DNA from: Sorangiineae bacterium NIC37A_2 | GTDB lineage: Bacteria; Myxococcota_A; Polyangia; Polyangiales; Polyangiaceae | Direction: 5' to 3' | Length of the DNA: 64,000 nt | NCBI GenBank assembly: GCA_002085155.1 | Contig: NASX01000017.1 | Span: forward strand, 8,681 to 72,680 | Part shown: positions 43,094-63,955 of the stretch, piece after piece | How the letters are laid out: every line of letters begins with the position of its first letter | Position numbering within the stretch: position 1 is the stretch's first letter | The notes under the pieces: model-generated | The model's database searches: none | What the model saw: the letters and a program-made list of their open reading frames with translations, nothing else | What the model was told of the DNA's origin: nothing | Program-made: the position numbers and the translations under genes

Positions 43094-43693
43094 ATGAATG
43101 ACCAGCGTGACAAGCCAGGGACCACGCGGGCGTGGATCCCTGCGCCACCCGTCGTAAAATCTCGGCCGGCGTCGCTCGCTGAGGTGCTGGTCCGGACCCA
43201 CGACGCGATGATCCAACGCTCCGGGTCCGTCATCAGCCAGGACGCCTGGCGAGCGATCGTCGGAGAGCGCATCGCTGCCCGCACGCGCGTTGCGTCCCTG
43301 TCGAAGGGAGTGCTCACGATCCGTGTGGCATCGGCGGCTTGGAGCACGGAGCTGTCTTTCCTCGAAACGGACCTCCTCGCGCGCTTTGCGGTAGCGGGCC
43401 TCCAAGTCAAAAAGCTCCGCTTTCAAGTGGACAAGGAGGCCTTAGGGACGACGCCGATGCCGCGAGCCCAGAGGTTCGCGTCGAAGACGGAAGATGATTT
43501 CCGAGCGGGCGCGGCGACAGCGCTGCCCCCCGAACTCACGGCTCGCCTCGCCCAGATCGAAGATCCGGCGCTCCGTGCCTCTATCGCTGCTGCAGCGCGG
43601 AGCTCTCTTTCGCGGAGGAGCGAAGTGCCTCGGGAACCGGATCGGGCACGCGGAGCAGGGGCACGTCGGGGCCCGCCCGGCAGATCACGATGA
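43094..43693 (+). CDS. DciA/DUF721-family protein
   Basis: The product of about 199 residues starts at ATG 43094 (MNDQRDKPGTTRAW). The conserved domain spans about 25-120: ASLAEVLVRTHDAMI, then AWRAIVGERIAARTRV, KGVLTIRVASAAWSTELSFLE, ending in KLRFQVD. This is the DUF721 fold now known as DciA, the ancestral loader of the replicative helicase. The tail is Arg/Pro-rich and probably disordered. Its last 113 bases overlap the end of the opposing methyltransferase gene. Confidence 0.75.
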   Translation: MNDQRDKPGTTRAWIPAPPVVKSRPASLAEVLVRTHDAMIQRSGSVISQDAWRAIVGERIAARTRVASLSKGVLTIRVASAAWSTELSFLETDLLARFAVAGLQVKKLRFQVDKEALGTTPMPRAQRFASKTEDDFRAGAATALPPELTARLAQIEDPALRASIAAAARSSLSRRSEVPREPDRARGAGARRGPPGRSR

Positions 43694-44534
43694 CATCGTC
43701 GAGCTCGTAGAGGGGAGCCTCAGGATCGCCTCCCGACAGGTAAGGAACGCGGCTCAGGACCAGGGGCTCGAGGCCGAGAGGCAGGAGAGCATTTTGCACG
43801 AACTCGCTCGCGGCGCGCTCGAAGCCCTTCGCGTGGATCGGCAGACGCTCCCGGGGGGCCCGACTCCGCCCGCCATCATAGACGAAGGGATCGTAGGGGA
43901 GCACGAGGGCGACGATGAAGAGTCCGCCCTCTCGAACGAAGGAGCGAGCGGCGCCGAGCAGTGAGAGGGGGCGGTCGCAGCGATCGAGCACGTTGAGAAG
44001 GCTGACGGCGTCGAACTTCTCTCCGCCGGCGAGTAAGGCGCCCTCCGCCAGGTCGCCGTGGACCGCCCGAAACCCTCGCTTGGCCAGGCGAGAGACCATG
44101 GCTTTGGAAGTCTCGGTGGCTGTGACTTCCTGGAAGCACCGCGCGAGCTCGGAGGTGACGTCGCCGCGCCCTGCCCCAATGTCGAGCAGGCTGCGCAAGG
44201 GGGCGGTCTCGGCCGCGGGCGCCTTCAGGGCGGCCTGGAACAGCTCTCTCCACTGGGCCTCCGACAGGACGTGCATGGGGTAGAGACCGAGCAGGCCGTT
44301 GATGTCGAAGTCAGAAAGAAAGCCCTGGAGCAGGCCATGGAGCCAAGCCAAGAACCTCCCGTGGCGCTTTCGGAGCGCGTGGCGGACGTAGGCCTCGGTC
44401 CCCGCGTCAAAGGCGAGCTCATGGAAACGCAATTGGTTCGCAAGTTGCGCGCGGTCGACGGAATATTCGAGCCGGAGCCCGGAGAGCACAGGGTCGAGTT
44501 CGGGAGCCCAGGGGCGCGCAGAATTTTCTTTCAT
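43581..44534 (-). CDS. METTL9/DREV-type protein-histidine methyltransferase homologue
   Basis: I place the start at ATG 44534 (MKENSARPWAP), giving 317 residues. The open frame runs to 45224, but that part is antisense to sodB. The SAM-binding loop is LLDIGAGRGDVT (116-127). Around it the protein follows eukaryotic METTL9 block by block as I remember it: DINGLLG (77-83), ATETSKAM (139-146), LNVLDRCDRPLSLL (180-193), ALVLPYDPFV (209-218), RVPYLSGGD (262-270) and YELDDVIVI (276-284). METTL9 methylates the pros nitrogen of the second-position His in His-x-His motifs with small x. A bacterial substrate is not known to me. Two His-x-His proteins are coded in this window. It is divergent from sodB over about 95 bp. 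Confidence 0.8.
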   Translation of the reverse strand: MKENSARPWAPELDPVLSGLRLEYSVDRAQLANQLRFHELAFDAGTEAYVRHALRKRHGRFLAWLHGLLQGFLSDFDINGLLGLYPMHVLSEAQWRELFQAALKAPAAETAPLRSLLDIGAGRGDVTSELARCFQEVTATETSKAMVSRLAKRGFRAVHGDLAEGALLAGGEKFDAVSLLNVLDRCDRPLSLLGAARSFVREGGLFIVALVLPYDPFVYDGGRSRAPRERLPIHAKGFERAASEFVQNALLPLGLEPLVLSRVPYLSGGDPEAPLYELDDVIVICRAGPDVPLLRVPDPVPEALRSSAKESSALQQR

Positions 44535-44630
44535 CGAGTGATCTTCGACAGTGTTCGTCCTATGTTGCCGAAAGCGTTGAGCGCGCCCTGACTCGTGCTC
44601 ACTACACAAATCCCCTGAAGGAGAAAAGCA

Positions 44631-45218
44631 ATGGACTTTACTGTGCCCCCGCTGCCCTATGGCAAAGACGCTTTGGCCCCCGTCATGAGCGCGGAGACCC
44701 TCGAGTTCCACTACGAGAAGCATCACAAAGGCTACATGGCGAAGCTCGAGCCGCTTTTGGCCGGCAAGCCTGAAGCGAGCAAATCGCTCGAGGAGATCGT
44801 GAAGACCTCGAGCGGCGCGGTCTTCAACAACGCGGCCCAGGTTTGGAACCACACGTTCTTCTGGAACAGCATGAAGCCCGGTGGTGGCGGGGCTCCCCCC
44901 GCGGGTCCGGTCGCCGATCTCATCGGAAAGCTCGGTGGTTACGAGAAGTTCCGTGAAGAGTTCATCGCTGCGGGCAACGGCCGCTTCGGCTCTGGCTGGG
45001 CTTGGTTGGTGCTCTCCGGTGGCGCGCCGAAAATCGTCTCGACGAGCAACGCGGACACCCCTCTCACGACCGGCGATATCCCTCTGCTCACCGCGGACGT
45101 GTGGGAGCACGCCTACTATATCGACCACAGGAACAACCGAAACGCCTTCCTTGAGGCTTTCGTGGACAAGCTCCTGAACTGGGACTTCGTAGCGAAGAAC
45201 CTCGCAGCGGCTGGCTGA
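44631..45218 (+). CDS. sodB: Iron/manganese superoxide dismutase, Fe-type
   Basis: The 195-residue product starts after a clear AAGGAGAAAAGC. The metal ligands are all visible: His in EFHYEKHHKGY, His in VWNHTFFW, and Asp and His in ADVWEHAYYIDHRN. FNNAAQVWNHTFFWNSMKPGGGG and GSGWAWLVL are typical of the iron enzyme. It is cytoplasmic with no signal peptide. It converts superoxide to O2 and H2O2. It is followed by a strong hairpin. Confidence 0.95.
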   Translation: MDFTVPPLPYGKDALAPVMSAETLEFHYEKHHKGYMAKLEPLLAGKPEASKSLEEIVKTSSGAVFNNAAQVWNHTFFWNSMKPGGGGAPPAGPVADLIGKLGGYEKFREEFIAAGNGRFGSGWAWLVLSGGAPKIVSTSNADTPLTTGDIPLLTADVWEHAYYIDHRNNRNAFLEAFVDKLLNWDFVAKNLAAAG

Positions 45219-45227
45219 TTTCACTCA

Positions 45228-52990: not shown

Positions 52991-54502
52991 CTATGCGCTC
53001 TTCTTCCGGAGCATCGACTTGAGCGCACCGAGCCGCTCTTTGGTCAAGAGCCCCATCCTCCATAGAACCACGAGGTAAGCGAGCACCGCGATGGGTGCCG
53101 AGAGCCAGGGGTTCATGACCATCCGCGTCAGGTACGCAGTGAGCGCCATGACGGAGCCCGCGGCGAAAGACGCGAAGGCGAGTCGCAGCACTGCACGTCC
53201 CAGGAGGATTTCGGGCAAGAGCGCGATCGCGAAGCCGAGGATGACGAGCTCTCCGAAGATCACAGAGATACAGACGCCGAGGCCGCCGTTTCCATAGTGC
53301 TCCTGAAAATAGGGGACGAGGAAGGGATCGAGACCCGCGCTCACGCCGACGCAGGCGAGCTGAGCCAATGACCAGGCCTTCTGGCGACCTCCCGCGATGG
53401 CCGTCGTGCCGGAGACCATCGTCATATAGGCGAGCACGAGGAAGATGGACAGAAGGCGCAAGTTGTCTTCCGCTTCGTGGAAGGTCTCTTTGCTGAAGAG
53501 CTGAATGCCGAGATCCGGGTACATCGAGGCGCCCACAGCGGCGGGTGCGACGAGGAGGATCACGGTGCCGAGGGCGTTGCTGGCGGTGGACAGGTAGGCG
53601 GCGCGGTCAGCGTGGGCCAGTCGAACCAAGGTGGGGTGAAGCGCGGAGCACACCGTTGTCACCGGGAGGCCCAGCGTTCCGATCAGCTTTTGGGCGGCCG
53701 CGTGCCAGCCGGCGGCGGCGGGCGACGCGGCTCTCGACAGGAAGAACGCGTCAATGTTCGGCTGAAGCGCCATCGTGATGCCGAGGATCAAATGGGGTGT
53801 TCCGCGCCCGAGAAGTTCGCGCGCCGCGCTTCGACTGAAATAGAGCGAACCGATGTTGAGTCGTTTGAGACTTCGAGACAGAAAGATCAGGATGGCGCAG
53901 GCGGCGGTCGCCTGTGCAAAGAGCACCTGATAGAGCGAGCCCCCTGAAAGCAGCACTGTGGCCGTCAAAGCTGCTGTGAGCAGTTGGTGCAGGACCTGGG
54001 TGAGGGCAGGCAGCGCGGAGCGCTCAAAGCTACGAAAGCCATTGATGTAGGTCTGGTGCAGCGACTGAAACCACTGGGAGAGGCCGACAATCAAGACCGC
54101 CGTCTGCAGCTTGTCGCTCTGGTCCGAGAGGTAAGCAATCCCGAAGGAGAGAGAACAAGCGATGGGCCCGAAGGCAATTTTCAGCCAGCGTCCAGTGCCG
54201 ATGATCTCCGCTGCGCGCGCGCGATCGCGCGCGACCACCTCCATGAGAGCACCACCTTGGCCCCAGTCTGTCAGGAGAAAGGCGAGACTGTTGAAGGTGG
54301 TGGCGAGGTAGATCGTGCCAAAGTCCTCAGGACCCAGGAACCGGCCGAGAAGCGCCGAGATCAGGATGCTGATGGGCATGACAGCGATCTGTCCTGCCAT
54401 GAGCAGAGAGGTGTTCTTGACGAGGAGACGCGACGCCTCTTGGTTGGTGGCGTTCCGTTTGCGCTCTTCCTCCTCTAGTTTCTCTTTCGAATCCGCATCC
54501 AT
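52991..54502 (-). CDS. Polysaccharide flippase (Wzx/MATE-MVF type)
   Basis: The 503-residue membrane protein has about 14 helices. The opening RLLVKNTSLLMAGQIAVMPI and GRFLGPEDFGTIYLATTF are typical of Wzx-type polysaccharide transporters. It moves lipid-linked sugar units across the inner membrane. It lies 18 bp downstream of the outer-membrane barrel gene on the same strand, and the pair suggests an export pathway. A Wzy-like gene lies at 59-60.7 kb. Confidence 0.85.
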   Translation of the reverse strand: MDADSKEKLEEEERKRNATNQEASRLLVKNTSLLMAGQIAVMPISILISALLGRFLGPEDFGTIYLATTFNSLAFLLTDWGQGGALMEVVARDRARAAEIIGTGRWLKIAFGPIACSLSFGIAYLSDQSDKLQTAVLIVGLSQWFQSLHQTYINGFRSFERSALPALTQVLHQLLTAALTATVLLSGGSLYQVLFAQATAACAILIFLSRSLKRLNIGSLYFSRSAARELLGRGTPHLILGITMALQPNIDAFFLSRAASPAAAGWHAAAQKLIGTLGLPVTTVCSALHPTLVRLAHADRAAYLSTASNALGTVILLVAPAAVGASMYPDLGIQLFSKETFHEAEDNLRLLSIFLVLAYMTMVSGTTAIAGGRQKAWSLAQLACVGVSAGLDPFLVPYFQEHYGNGGLGVCISVIFGELVILGFAIALLPEILLGRAVLRLAFASFAAGSVMALTAYLTRMVMNPWLSAPIAVLAYLVVLWRMGLLTKERLGALKSMLRKKSA

Positions 54503-57717: not shown

Positions 57718-59189
57718 CATCCTCTGTGTTCGATCGAATATCCGGATCGAGCCGTCGACTTGCCCGCTTGCGCGGCACGCTCCTTTCTGAAGTTCTGCCG
57801 GCGATCCGGCTGGCCCTCCTCTTGGGTGTGGTCGGGTGTTCGGTATCGGCCCAGCCGTCAAGACCCGGCGATGGCGGCGGCGCGGCGGGCGAGGGTGGAG
57901 GCGGCTCGGCCGAGGCGCCCCCACCACCAGGGTTGTCGGAGGAAGACCTGCTCGCGCGCCTGAAGAAGCATCTCCTTCCGGCGAATCGTCCTCGGCGGCC
58001 CGATATCACGAACGCCTACGCAGACGATCCTCGGGCGGCGAAACTCGGGAAGAAGTTCTTTCACGATCGGCGATTTTCCGGACCGCTTCTGGCTCATGAC
58101 AACACCGGCGGCATTGGAACGCTGGGTCGCGCCGCTGAGGTCAACAAGGTCTCCTGCGCCGACTGCCACATCCCGCATGACGGGTACGTGGATACCCGAA
58201 GCACCCGCGGTCAGCTTTCGCTTGCTTCGGGCTGGACCCGGCGGAGAACACCGACGCTGTTGGACGTGGCGCAGGTCGACATCTTGAACTGGGATGGCCG
58301 AAGGGACACCGCTTATTCCGTAGTATTTGGGGTCATCGAGAGTCCGCTCGAGTTCAACAGCTCGCGGCTTTACGTCGCCCAGCAAATTGCGCGCTTCTAC
58401 CGCGAAGACTACGAGGAGGTCTTCGGCCCGCTGCCATCCCTGCATCAGTACGACCCCTTGGATGCCGCGCGTGCGGGGTGTGAGATCATGCCCCTCGACG
58501 CGACCAATGAGCAATGCCTCCATCCCGGCGTCGATGATGCTGAGGTCACGAGGGTCGTCGTCAATTTCGGAAAAGCCATCTCTGCACATATGCGGCAGCT
58601 TGAGTGTGGAAGAAGTCGGTTTGACGATTGGCTCGAGGGGGACGAAGACGCGCTTTCGCCGGAGGAAGTCGCCGGAGCCAAGCTGTTTGTCGGGAAGGCC
58701 GAGTGCGCGACCTGCCACGTGGGGCCCTATTTCTCGGACCACAAGTTTCACAACGTAGGCGTCCCAGGGAGCTTGTCGCCGTTTACGGGCATCGACACTC
58801 GGGGAGATCGCGGCGCAGCCCTCGGTTTGCAGCTCGTTCAAGAGGATTGGCTCAACTCGCGGGGACCCTTTAGCGATGGCGATGACAACCGCCTGGACCA
58901 GATCCCCGGCGACCTCGAGAAACTCGAAGGAGCCTTTCGCACACCCATGCTCCGCTGTGCGGGGCGCCGGCCCTCGTATTTCCACAACGGCGACTTCCGA
59001 AGTCTGATCGATGTGGTCGAGCACTTCATTCGTGGTGGCGGGGACCAAAAGGACGTCGTCGGTAAATCGGAGCTCAAGCCGCTTCCTCTATCTCCGACAG
59101 AGCGGGACGAACTTGTCGCGTTCTTGAAAGCGCTCGAGGGCCCCGGACCCGACCTCGAGATCATCTCGACGCCGGAACTCCCACCTTAG
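57714..59189 (+). CDS. Di-haem cytochrome c peroxidase/MauG-family lipoprotein
   Basis: Start GTG 57714 overlaps the upstream stop. The 491-residue product has a signal/lipobox region ending in LLGVVGC, then a Gly/Pro-rich spacer. Two CxxCH haem sites follow: CADCHIPH in the N-terminal half and CATCHVGPYF near two thirds. Family texts include FFHDRRFSG, RRTPTLLDVAQ, LFVGKAECATCH, FRTPMLRCAGRRPSYFHNG and VVEHFIRGGG. It should reduce H2O2 or oxidise a protein or small substrate at the cell surface. It is coupled to the lectin-like lipoprotein, so oxidation of a bound partner is a reasonable guess. Its end overlaps the opposing Wzy gene by 4 bp. Confidence 0.85.
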   Translation: MTSSVFDRISGSSRRLARLRGTLLSEVLPAIRLALLLGVVGCSVSAQPSRPGDGGGAAGEGGGGSAEAPPPPGLSEEDLLARLKKHLLPANRPRRPDITNAYADDPRAAKLGKKFFHDRRFSGPLLAHDNTGGIGTLGRAAEVNKVSCADCHIPHDGYVDTRSTRGQLSLASGWTRRRTPTLLDVAQVDILNWDGRRDTAYSVVFGVIESPLEFNSSRLYVAQQIARFYREDYEEVFGPLPSLHQYDPLDAARAGCEIMPLDATNEQCLHPGVDDAEVTRVVVNFGKAISAHMRQLECGRSRFDDWLEGDEDALSPEEVAGAKLFVGKAECATCHVGPYFSDHKFHNVGVPGSLSPFTGIDTRGDRGAALGLQLVQEDWLNSRGPFSDGDDNRLDQIPGDLEKLEGAFRTPMLRCAGRRPSYFHNGDFRSLIDVVEHFIRGGGDQKDVVGKSELKPLPLSPTERDELVAFLKALEGPGPDLEIISTPELPP

Positions 59190-60703
59190 GCCGCCTTGGC
59201 TTTCCCTCGCCCCCCTGGCCAGGCGCCGGTGGTGACTGCGAGCTTTCCAGCGGAGGCGATGGAGGTCGACATCAGAAATACTCCCGCCCACGAACCGAGG
59301 CCCATGTCTCCGTAGGACTGGAGGAGATAGATGAGCACTGAGCCTAAGCAGATGACGGCTCCCACGCGCTCGATCGGCTTTTTGGTGTGTCGGTAGCCGA
59401 GCATGGCGAAGTAAGCGCAGCCCGCCCAGAGTAGAACCAGCCCGGTGTATCCTACGACGCCGCCGAACGCCCAAATCCCAAAGATGGCATTGTGAGGGCA
59501 ATAAAGCTCAAGGGGGTAGGCTACGGCGGGGAGTGGGATCACTTCCCAGAATGGATGGCCGTAGCCGTGGCCCAAGATGGGGTGCATGCGGAAGGTAAAA
59601 AGGATGTCGTAGTTCTCGATTTCACGCCAAAGGGAAGACCCGTCCGTGGAAGGTTCGACGACGGACCTGATCGTCGCCACGGGCTTGAAGAGCTTGTTGG
59701 TCGTGGCGTTCCAACCGGCAGCGATATAGGCCGCCACGAAGGGGGCGAGGGCCAGCGCTCCGTTGCGGATGCGACGCTTGATGGGGTTGGGCGGTGTGAT
59801 GAGGTAGAGCGTGAACAGGACCATCACGATCAGCACCCAGACCATGCGCCTGTCGTTCGCCACCATACCCCAGAGCAAGAGCGGGAGGCAGAGAATGGCT
59901 CGTCGGCCTGCGCCTTTTCCCATCCGCTCGACGATCGGGAGAAGCAGAATCAGCGTCGCTGCAGCGAAGAGCATCGAGTCATGATGGGTCGTGGCGGTTT
60001 CCATCGGCGACTCGCCCCATTCGTTGAGCGGGAGAACCACAGCCTGTCGGACATACACGCAGAGCCCCGCTCGATAGAGCCCTGAGATCAGGAGGATCTT
60101 GGCAAGGGGGACGAAATCGCGCGAATCCCGGAGCCCTGCGTCGAAAAGGAAGGTGAGGATAGGCAGGTAGACCACCCGGTCGAGCTGCCAGAGCGCCATG
60201 TTGAACGTTCCTCCCCGAAAGAACACGCCCCAAATCAGCATCCAGAACGAAGTGAGGAGCGACAGGTGTGCCAGGCGCATGAGCTCCCGGGGCGCTCTCG
60301 TGCGACCTATGCGATCGATGGGAGAGTTGCTCGCCTCTCGGAAATAGGAGAGCCCGAGAAGGAAGAAAATGAAGAGCTCGATAGGCGACAAGACGCCAAT
60401 GGAGAGGCCCGTCGTATTCTTCAGGTGGAGAAAAAAAACAGTGCCGACGAGGTGGAGCGGCGTATCCCAGAACCCCGAGGCCATACCATCGTTCGGATTC
60501 TGCAGGACGTAGGCCCAGAACATGAGCACGTAGAGCGAGTACCGAAGCGGCGAGCGGATGGCCGCGTAAAGGAAGCCGCTGACGAAGAAGGGCGACAGCG
60601 CCCACGCGAGGGGGCCCGATTCTATTGCCCCTGCCAGAGCGACGAGCACACAAGAGGCGATGAAAGCGCCTTTGGCGTCTCCAGGGGGACCTCGGTCAGC
60701 CAT
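59186..60703 (-). CDS. O-antigen polymerase/ligase-like membrane protein (Wzy-type)
   Basis: The 505-residue product starts at ATG 60703 after a good AGGGAGG. It has about 11-12 helices and a large periplasmic loop (residues about 330-410, including IENYDILFTFRMHPILGHGYGHPFWE) as in Wzy/WaaL proteins. LGHGYGHPF is a recurring loop motif of this family. It should polymerise lipid-linked repeat units in the periplasmic leaflet. It is the first of the minus-strand run after the acyl-transfer pair, about 190 bp away. Confidence 0.75.
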   Translation of the reverse strand: MADRGPPGDAKGAFIASCVLVALAGAIESGPLAWALSPFFVSGFLYAAIRSPLRYSLYVLMFWAYVLQNPNDGMASGFWDTPLHLVGTVFFLHLKNTTGLSIGVLSPIELFIFFLLGLSYFREASNSPIDRIGRTRAPRELMRLAHLSLLTSFWMLIWGVFFRGGTFNMALWQLDRVVYLPILTFLFDAGLRDSRDFVPLAKILLISGLYRAGLCVYVRQAVVLPLNEWGESPMETATTHHDSMLFAAATLILLLPIVERMGKGAGRRAILCLPLLLWGMVANDRRMVWVLIVMVLFTLYLITPPNPIKRRIRNGALALAPFVAAYIAAGWNATTNKLFKPVATIRSVVEPSTDGSSLWREIENYDILFTFRMHPILGHGYGHPFWEVIPLPAVAYPLELYCPHNAIFGIWAFGGVVGYTGLVLLWAGCAYFAMLGYRHTKKPIERVGAVICLGSVLIYLLQSYGDMGLGSWAGVFLMSTSIASAGKLAVTTGAWPGGRGKAKAA

Positions 60704-60892: not shown

Positions 60893-61603
60893 TTATCGAG
60901 AAGCGTCAATGAGCGAAGCCACTTCGCCGACGGTCTTGGCTTTCGCGATCTTGGATTGATCGAGGAGCACTCCGAAGGTCTCCTCGAGGGCGAGCAGAAC
61001 TCGAAGGCTTCCGAGGGAGTCCCATCCGGGAATCTGGTCCGGCCCAGCGCTCGTGGGGGGCGCATTCGGGAGCCCAAAAACTCTCCTAAAGACCTCTTCG
61101 ACGGTCGTCGCTTGACCGCTGGGGTCGCTGAATCCGCTGCCTACTGGACGAGCAGGCACACCTCCGACCGTCGCCCCGCTCTCGATCGGGGACGAAACGA
61201 CGCTGCCGCTCAGAACTTCCACGTCATCACCGATGGTGCTCCCAGGGAGGATGGTCACGCGGGCACCGATCCGGACTCTCTTGCCGATGCGAATCGGCGC
61301 GACGCGGCCGCTTTTGTTTCGATCGCCGACAGCGTGAAAGTCGGAGTCCGCGATCGCCGCGTAGGGGCCAATCTGGGTCCCTTCGCCGATCTCGACCAGC
61401 TCTGCCGCGTAGATGGCGGCACCGAAGGAGATCACCGAGCTCGCTCCGACGCTGACTTGCCCTTCGGGTCCCGCGGCGAGATGGGAAGGGGCCGGCTGAC
61501 CTGAGAGGCGCACCCTGTCCTGAACGATGATGCGCCCGGGGCCGCGGAACTCAACCGAGCCGACGATTTTGGCTGTCGGAGCTATCTGCTGGGCTTTGCT
61601 CAT
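60893..61603 (-). CDS. Hexapeptide acyltransferase fused to an acyl carrier protein domain
   Basis: The 236-residue product has a left-handed beta-helix acyltransferase domain at about residues 8-155 (VSVGASSVISFGAAIYAAEL, IGEGTQIGPYAAIADSDFH with the likely catalytic His, RIGARVTILPGSTIG). An acyl carrier protein domain follows at about 166-236. The 4'-phosphopantetheine Ser is Ser196 in IPGWDSLGSLRVLLALEE. The fusion would let the acyl group loaded on the carrier be passed straight to a sugar. It lies 12 bp after the FkbH-fusion gene, in one operon. The acyl group is probably glyceryl or derived from it given that partner. Confidence 0.8.
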   Translation of the reverse strand: MSKAQQIAPTAKIVGSVEFRGPGRIIVQDRVRLSGQPAPSHLAAGPEGQVSVGASSVISFGAAIYAAELVEIGEGTQIGPYAAIADSDFHAVGDRNKSGRVAPIRIGKRVRIGARVTILPGSTIGDDVEVLSGSVVSSPIESGATVGGVPARPVGSGFSDPSGQATTVEEVFRRVFGLPNAPPTSAGPDQIPGWDSLGSLRVLLALEETFGVLLDQSKIAKAKTVGEVASLIDASR

Positions 61604-61615
61604 GAGAATCCCGTT

Positions 61616-63955
61616 TCAGCGTGCAAAGTCGAGACTGATGCACGAAGGCAAGGGGAGCGGATCGTGGAGCTCTGCGGAGAAGCGCGAGCCGTCGCGAGTG
61701 AGCCCCGAGCGCTCGAAGAACTCCAGACAAGGTTTGTTCTTCGCGGTCTCGATGTAGTCCGCGATCAAGCGGGTCGCGCCGCGCTCCCGGCCGAACTCGG
61801 ACGCTAGGTGGAGGAGGGTTTCTTCAACGCGGCGTCCCATGACGCGGCAGCTCAGGACAAAATCGATGATGTGCGCGTCGGTCCCGTTCACCTCGAGCCC
61901 GAGCAGCCCCGTCAACCCTGAATCTCCGAACTTGTCGGAGACGTGGACCACGTAAAAGCGGTGGTTCGGAGCCTCCGCCCAAGCCTTCAGCTCGGACTCG
62001 GTGAGGCGCCGAGTCGTCAGGTTCATCTGATTGGTCTTGTTGAGGAGCTGGGCCGCGCGGGTGAGATTTGTGGTGCTGAGCGGTTCCGCGCGAAGACGAA
62101 GTCCGAGCGTGTGAAGCCACTCGTCCACGGAGCCGAGCTGTTGCTGCAAGGCTTCGCGCTGCTTCTCTTGCTGGTACATCGTGCCGCGCTCAGCATCTTC
62201 AGCGGTCAGATAGGGACTGTCGAAGCAGGTGAGCGAAGCGAAGGCCTTGACGTACTCGAGGTGGTCTTTGGGCCACTCGGGCACGAACACCTCAGGCAAG
62301 GCGTCACGGACGCGGGCGCGCTCGACGGGATTGTCGTCGATGAAAACCACGGACTGAAGGCCGAGGTTCAGCTCGCGGGTCAGGTCGGCGATGTTCTGGG
62401 CCTTGTCCTGCCAATTGATGCGCCAGGTGACGAAGTCCTCCTTGCGCAGGATCATCTCGGGGTGTTTCTCGATGGCCTCAAGGGCAACCGATTCTGTGTT
62501 CTTGCTCACGACCGCTAGCAAGATGCCGCGGCGCTTGAGGGCTTTGATGGAGCGTTGGAAGTCGACGAGCGCTTCTCCGACGGCGTCGTGCCCGCCGAGC
62601 CTCAAGTTTTCCCAACCGACATCGCCCACGATCCCTCCCCACAGGGTCTCATCGAGATCCAAGACAAGAAGCTTGCGCGGAGCGATGGTCGCGGCTCCCA
62701 CCGCCGCACGGATGTCGCGAGCGGCCTCGCGGAGCATTTGCCTCGGAAAGGCAATTTTTCCCATGAACCAGGCTCGCGGAGAGGCGGGCGCTGCTGCGTC
62801 CGCTTGCCAGCGCTCCGCTGGTAGAACGAACACATTTTTGTGCTGTTCGAGCTGGGACATGAGCCGCAGATTCATCTCTGCGAGGGTGCGGCGCACTCCG
62901 CCCGAGCGACTGTCCATGAGTCCGGAGCCGCGGATCCATGTTGGGACGACCCAGGTCGGCACAATGACGATCCGATAGGCGGCAGCCGCGTGGCCGATGA
63001 GCTTGCAGTAGTCATCGACCTCCTGGTCGATCACGTCCTTCGCGACGGGCTCTCCTCGAAGCACGCGCTCAAAGCTCGGCACGATGGATTCGGGGCGCGT
63101 CCAAGCGAGGATGAAATCCCCGAAACCCGTCTCCGGAGGTGCGAGGAGGGCTTGGGCTACCTGACCGAAACCTCCGAAGCACGCTTCGATCGGCGGTTCG
63201 GCCATGGGCAAAGCGAGAAACTCCGAGAGCTCGTCGACCGTGAAGTCCGCGGCGACGAAGCCCCGTGCGATGGGTTCAACGGTCGCCTTCGGGAGCTCGT
63301 GGCCACAGGTGTTCTGAGTGGTAGCGGGCGGCGCTTCTGCTTCCGGAGCCGGCTCCGCTGCATCGATCGTACGCAAGATACGCGCGGGGTTTCCGCCTGC
63401 GATCACCCCCTCAGGCAGATCCGAGGCGACGATACTTCCTGCTGTGATGACGGTGCGAGCGCCGATGGTGACGCCGGGGAGGACCGTGACTCGGCCCGCA
63501 ATCCAGACGTCGTCGCCGATGACGATGGGCTTTGCGCTGTCGCCCAGGTCAGCGGCCAGCTCCGGAACGTCGACGTCCGAAACGATGCTGTGCTGACCGA
63601 TCATGACTCGGTCGCCGATCTTCACCTTCGAGCCGGCGGCGATCACGACACCGAAGTTGATCCAGACGTCATCGCCGATCTCGAGCTCGGCACCGGGACC
63701 CGCGTAGAAATCTACCGGTAGGGATTCAGCGTGTACGTTGAGACCATGGCCTATCACAATCCGGCCATGATTCTCGACATGGAGTCGCCCGCCGACTCGT
63801 GCGCCGGCTCCGCCTTCGCACCCCTTGAGCGCTCCACTGGCGTTCGCCGTTTCGCTCAGGAGCCTCACGCCTCGCTTCAGCTTGTCTGGAAGGGAACCCT
63901 TGTCCCTGGCTCGCACACCGCCAACAATTTTCGACAGCAGTTCAGGCTTTCGCAC
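61616..63955 (-). CDS. Hexapeptide transferase-FkbH-like-GNAT fusion
   Basis: The 779-residue product starts at GTG 63955, with an in-frame stop 15 bp upstream, so it is complete. Residues about 50-195 form a left-handed beta-helix acetyltransferase-like domain (IGDDVWINFGVVIAAGSKVKI, IGQHSIVSD, TVLPGVTIGARTVI). Residues about 240-425 match the N-terminal domain of FkbH-like proteins (EACFGGFGQVAQAL). The HAD domain follows with LLVLDLDETLWGGIVGD (DLDET at 433-437), VVSKNTESVA and FIDDNPVERARVR. The last 140 residues are a GNAT-like module (LSCRVMGRRVEETLL). FkbH proteins load glyceryl from 1,3-bisphosphoglycerate onto a carrier protein. The adjacent gene supplies an ACP domain. Confidence 0.85.
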   Translation of the reverse strand: MRKPELLSKIVGGVRARDKGSLPDKLKRGVRLLSETANASGALKGCEGGAGARVGGRLHVENHGRIVIGHGLNVHAESLPVDFYAGPGAELEIGDDVWINFGVVIAAGSKVKIGDRVMIGQHSIVSDVDVPELAADLGDSAKPIVIGDDVWIAGRVTVLPGVTIGARTVITAGSIVASDLPEGVIAGGNPARILRTIDAAEPAPEAEAPPATTQNTCGHELPKATVEPIARGFVAADFTVDELSEFLALPMAEPPIEACFGGFGQVAQALLAPPETGFGDFILAWTRPESIVPSFERVLRGEPVAKDVIDQEVDDYCKLIGHAAAAYRIVIVPTWVVPTWIRGSGLMDSRSGGVRRTLAEMNLRLMSQLEQHKNVFVLPAERWQADAAAPASPRAWFMGKIAFPRQMLREAARDIRAAVGAATIAPRKLLVLDLDETLWGGIVGDVGWENLRLGGHDAVGEALVDFQRSIKALKRRGILLAVVSKNTESVALEAIEKHPEMILRKEDFVTWRINWQDKAQNIADLTRELNLGLQSVVFIDDNPVERARVRDALPEVFVPEWPKDHLEYVKAFASLTCFDSPYLTAEDAERGTMYQQEKQREALQQQLGSVDEWLHTLGLRLRAEPLSTTNLTRAAQLLNKTNQMNLTTRRLTESELKAWAEAPNHRFYVVHVSDKFGDSGLTGLLGLEVNGTDAHIIDFVLSCRVMGRRVEETLLHLASEFGRERGATRLIADYIETAKNKPCLEFFERSGLTRDGSRFSAELHDPLPLPSCISLDFAR

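Follow-up and report, generated by a model that had tools for sequence, protein, structure and literature searches.

A two-gene LbH-FkbH and LbH-ACP module beside a Wzy polymerase: a predicted acyl supply-and-transfer system for an exopolysaccharide

Introduction

What might an FkbH enzyme and an ACP, each fused to a domain of the LbH hexapeptide acyltransferase fold, be doing beside the gene of an exopolysaccharide polymerase? The question is raised by a stretch of 64,000 nucleotides from Sorangiineae bacterium NIC37A_2, here called the window; the draft source genome comprises 150 contigs and 5.0 Mb. Lipid A synthesis offers examples of LbH enzymes that use acyl-ACP, namely LbH trimers of the LpxA/LpxD type, which take acyl groups from ACP thioesters. 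Some FkbH-family enzymes are reported to lead to small acyl groups other than glyceryl. The formation of glyceryl-ACP from 1,3-bisphosphoglycerate (1,3-BPG) by FkbH and an ACP is the accepted scheme (PMC7489565). On balance we favour the reading that the two fused genes encode the two subunits of a module supplying and transferring acyl groups for an exopolysaccharide.

Results

Both genes were found on the minus strand, like all window features described below, at the places given in an earlier note on this DNA: gene 1 at 61616-63955 (779 aa, GTG start) and, 12 bases downstream, gene 2 at 60893-61603 (236 aa), after which the Wzy gene is next. Hexapeptide repeats (PF00132) were detected in both products. 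Gene 1 consists of an LbH domain, LbH1 (aa ~46-202, 63350-63820), the FkbH N-terminal domain (aa ~222-413, 62717-63292), and the FkbH HAD phosphatase with a GNAT-like part (aa ~414-772, 61640-62716). Residues 427-752 matched the FkbH model TIGR01686 with 301 bits (E 7e-90), about twice the curated cut-off of 147, and since the sequence preceding the HAD part fits a local HMM of the FkbH N-terminal domain of relatives (equivalent to PF21211), LbH1 is joined to a complete FkbH. The HAD catalytic residues and the conserved Ser-Cys-Arg (S702, C703, R704) are present in gene 1; across 77 FkbHs, D433, D435, T437, K518, D540, D541, Cys703 (codon at 61847-61849) and Arg704 were 99-100% conserved. The earlier note had listed GNAT as a third fusion partner. 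This was rejected, as the Foldseek matches to GNAT fall inside the canonical FkbH domain, and what stood was the joining of LbH to FkbH. AlphaFold models were weak (pLDDT 60-65) and too poor for claims on active sites or complexes.

Gene 2 combines a second LbH acyltransferase domain, LbH2 (aa ~3-155, 61139-61597), with an ACP domain (aa ~166-236, 60896-61108). The latter matched PF00550 with 21.3 bits (cut-off 20.8) and, among solved structures, the Geobacter ACP 2lml, and its candidate phosphopantetheine residue Ser196 (61016-61018) lies within WDSLG and is invariant in all relatives aligned, which bears out the LbH-ACP fusion proposed before. The top Foldseek matches of LbH2-ACP were ACPs alone, none of them with an E-value under 0.001. 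The source genome carries one PPTase gene. Among the 73 FkbH loci having flanks of 1.5 kb, 44 had an ACP gene on the same strand.

The two LbH domains, both taken for hexapeptide transferases in the earlier note, indeed share the fold but proved unequal. His90 of LbH2 (61334-61336), the candidate catalytic residue, aligns with the His of maltose acetyltransferases, whereas LbH1 has Pro131 at this position; in an alignment covering five loci, every ACP-fused LbH2 retained the catalytic His and every FkbH-fused LbH1 had lost it to Pro or Ala. The same His pattern was seen in an unfused LbH1/LbH2 pair of two genomes of the same family (G037, G090), where the pair adjoins a free ACP, an AMP-ligase, an asparagine-synthase-like amidotransferase and an NAD synthase. 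In the LbH tree, the unfused LbH2s nest within the LbH2-ACP clade (support 100/98), and all 14 domains of the LbH1/LbH2 group cluster with support of 84/89, below the strict threshold. The constant core is the pair of an active and an inactive LbH, and the loader is exchangeable, FkbH in one form and an AMP-ligase in the other. Unfused LbH1 and LbH2 genes with a free ACP, a TIGR03098-like AMP-ligase and an asparagine-synthase-like amidotransferase were recorded at L057 (9367-14871, minus strand) and L058 (2568-8254, plus strand).

A second lineage of neighbouring His-plus and His-less LbH genes occurs in the genomes G007, G256 and G657, while G627 has the two types on separate contigs. Adjacent genes of this lineage lie at L049 (1351-3245), L060 (9498-10804) and L135 (9900-11712), and neither FkbH nor ACP was detected beside these three pairs.

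Pattern-based and so incomplete scanning of 84,980 species genomes returned three relatives spanning nearly the full protein, whose neighbour in every case is the LbH2-ACP gene. A search of the relatives' genomes revealed a second full copy in a lichen Myxococcales MAG (G286). The fused pair is thus present in the same gene order at five loci (the window, L004, L005, L006 and L073) of four genomes, two of them Myxococcota of one family and two Proteobacteria, including Hyphomicrobium. Recurrence at the four further loci, where the two genes overlap by ~13 bases, shows that the fusion in the window is not due to chance, and it bears on the proposal of the earlier note that the same domain order be sought elsewhere. 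Searches of 284 phylum genomes, 297 from the Hyphomicrobium order and 107 from the family added no member to the fused clade; tblastn against plasmids gave partial matches alone, with no record reaching 80% coverage. The module is rare and patchy over two phyla, which suggests horizontal transfer. The window genome appears to belong to the same family as the lichen MAG, since G037 and G090, which count as members of the window genome's family, have the same coordinates as G637 and G638, two entries from the lichen MAG's family.

In the FkbH tree, the fused FkbHs form a single clade (99/97), which groups at 100/100 with its sister L059/L008, the FkbH at L059 being an unfused one from an EPS-type locus. 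An LbH-FkbH fusion in G679 (L104/L141) was considered as a family member and rejected, as it falls outside the clade, carries a different LbH and has an SDR-ACP neighbour; it is an independent fusion. At L141 (4916-9199, plus strand) it is followed by the SDR-ACP fusion, with a glycosyltransferase near. In G012, at L147 (7718-10519, minus strand), LbH, ACP and FkbH are encoded by three overlapping separate genes, with a sulfotransferase-like gene nearby, and this is an unfused form of the same idea.

The polymerase next to the module (59186-60703, 505 aa) matched NCBIfam Wzy_EPS with an E-value of 1.8e-105, a match that falls short of the equivalog cut-off, in agreement with the Wzy-like neighbour noted before, and a Wzx-type flippase (503 aa) is encoded at 52991-54502. 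Few glycosyltransferases or sugar-modifying genes lie near the window copy. The second lichen-MAG copy, at L073, has a Wzy fragment 51% identical to the window Wzy over 239 aa, and its locus also contains Wzx, glycosyltransferases and a tyrosine-kinase-like protein. The Hyphomicrobium copy adjoins WecG-type and other glycosyltransferases, and genes for a Wzy_C protein and a flippase lie at a distance of some 13-18 kb; the L006 copy lies away from obvious polysaccharide genes. Eleven of the 12 family genomes with LbH2-like genes also carry the Wzy lineage of the window, a lineage present in 35 of the 107 (p 1.2e-5, a value that ignores shared ancestry). Both genes share one contig in several genomes and are ~230 bases apart in G653. 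Elsewhere in the window, an open reading frame at 43581-45224 matched PF05219 strongly (149 bits), the DREV methyltransferase family, known mainly from eukaryotes (METTL9-like).

Discussion

The accepted FkbH/ACP scheme, together with the use of acyl-ACP by LbH enzymes, makes glyceryl-ACP feeding LbH2, with LbH1 in a structural role, the best reading of the module. FkbH would dephosphorylate 1,3-bisphosphoglycerate and load the glyceryl group onto the phosphopantetheine arm of the gene 2 ACP, as the intact active-site residues of gene 1 and the scheme for its family suggest, probably via Cys703, a role to which the conservation of this residue points. LbH2, tethered to the ACP, would then use His90 for cytoplasmic acylation, at a hydroxyl or an amino group, of either a lipid-linked repeat unit or its nucleotide-sugar precursor. 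Since LbH domains trimerise, we propose that LbH1, having lost its His, serves as structural partner in a hetero-oligomer with LbH2 that would gather loader, carrier and transferase. The decorated unit might subsequently be flipped by Wzx and polymerised by Wzy, judging from the genes of the locus. The glyceryl decoration of a surface polysaccharide put forward in the earlier note thus has FkbH, ACP and LbH in a Wzx/Wzy context on its side, with glyceryl as the predicted acyl group and a sugar as the predicted acceptor. Weighing against this reading are the scarcity of glycosyltransferase and sugar-modifying genes around the window copy and the position of the L006 copy apart from evident polysaccharide genes.

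A bolder reading, which we advance only tentatively, holds that LbH1 and LbH2 form an obligate heteromer, the dead subunit bearing the loader and the live one the carrier, in a self-contained channel from 1,3-BPG to the repeat unit. It also takes the pair as a modular scaffold on which an AMP-ligase and a free ACP can replace FkbH, and as one case of a wider class in which active/inactive LbH pairs are carrier-fed sugar acyltransferases.

Might the module act as proposed, but transfer something other than unmodified glyceryl, such as lactyl or a derivative that is oxidised or O-methylated? Glyceryl-ACP is oxidised and methylated in other FkbH pathways (PMC7489565), and two reports describe di-O-methylglyceric acid on the pseudaminic acid of the Campylobacter jejuni flagellar glycan (PMC3068675) and an fkbH-domain gene, cj1302, in the flagellar-glycan locus (PMC7099621). 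The two-gene module, however, lacks a dehydrogenase or O-methyltransferase gene, and none was recognised as conserved next to it at the five loci, so that we regard a modified acyl group as unlikely. It is more improbable still that LbH1 and LbH2 are ordinary, independent acetyl-CoA O-acetyltransferases and that FkbH and the ACP serve another enzyme. At related Wzy loci in G650, G653 and G658 there are indeed solitary LbH genes from this wider group that possess the His, with FkbH and ACP undetected beside them; against this, no copy of LbH1 has the catalytic His, the fusion is conserved over two phyla, and the unfused version keeps an ACP and a ligase alongside.

The FkbHs treated in the literature searched come mostly from polyketide clusters (PMC7489565), and the ACP might accordingly carry an intermediate of a small secreted metabolite, a polyketide- or NRPS-like methoxymalonyl or tetronate unit, with the polysaccharide genes being incidental. 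We give this very little credence. The 12 kb adjoining the window yielded no polyketide genes, as the earlier note had expected; PF14765, which is the family of PKS dehydratases, does not occur in the source genome; and the partners of methoxymalonyl or tetronate formation (dehydrogenases, an O-methyltransferase, a FabH-like gene, a PKS) were not recognised in the flanks. Furthermore, both FkbH and ACP are fused to LbH transferases, and the module is linked to a Wzy lineage. The preferred reading therefore remains an acylation module of an exopolysaccharide.

With the FkbH/ACP pairs of FK520, tetronate and methoxymalonyl pathways the module shares a canonical FkbH domain, intact active-site residues and a dedicated ACP, whereas it differs from the polyketide-cluster pairs in that no polyketide genes accompany it, FkbH and ACP are each LbH-fused, and the locus is a polysaccharide one. 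LpxA/LpxD-type enzymes use long-chain acyl groups from a free ACP in lipid A synthesis, whereas the present module has its ACP fused to the transferase and pairs it with a His-less subunit. Exosortase-A-associated EPS loci, which have an acyl-CoA ligase (TIGR03098) and hydrolases (TIGR03100/03101), recall the G037 arrangement, in which LbH1/LbH2 and ACP stand with a ligase nearest TIGR03098 (492 bits, below the cut-off of 592), but the window module has no ligase. A precedent is the C. jejuni locus, where an FkbH-domain gene lies among surface-glycan genes and the glycan bears a glyceric acid derivative, so that the biochemical idea is not new. In the passages covered, cj1302 is described only as present and its link to glyceric acid is presumptive, whereas the window holds a fused two-gene module with paired LbH domains. 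The claim that the arrangement is undescribed has to be narrowed by this precedent; a literature search that took in a minority of subscription journals turned up no paper on an LbH-FkbH fusion or on two LbH domains paired and fused in this way. The separate steps are known chemistry, and what seems undescribed is the fusion of loader and carrier each to one half of a matched LbH pair.

If this holds true, the decoration of polysaccharides would be tied to 1,3-BPG, a central intermediate of glycolysis, with no coenzyme A thioester as donor, and sugar acylation would have a new layout, consisting of a scaffold of dead and live paralogues, an exchangeable loader and a tethered carrier. The LbH1/LbH2 pairing could serve as a sequence signature for locating carrier-fed sugar acyltransferases, whose acyl group might become predictable from the neighbouring loader.

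Two further gene neighbourhoods of FkbH came to light. Two-domain alpha/beta hydrolases resembling the exosortase-A-associated hydrolases 1 and 2, with scores below the TIGR03100/03101 cut-offs, flank two FkbH loci and lie beside FkbH/ACP genes at L148 (10333-12075) and L073 (15725-17602). At L144 (6349-12162, minus strand) and L150 (2767-9084), FkbH and ACP genes adjoin a DltB-like MBOAT gene, on the opposite strand in L150, and this set is possibly a glyceryl counterpart of D-alanylation, with FkbH in place of DltA.
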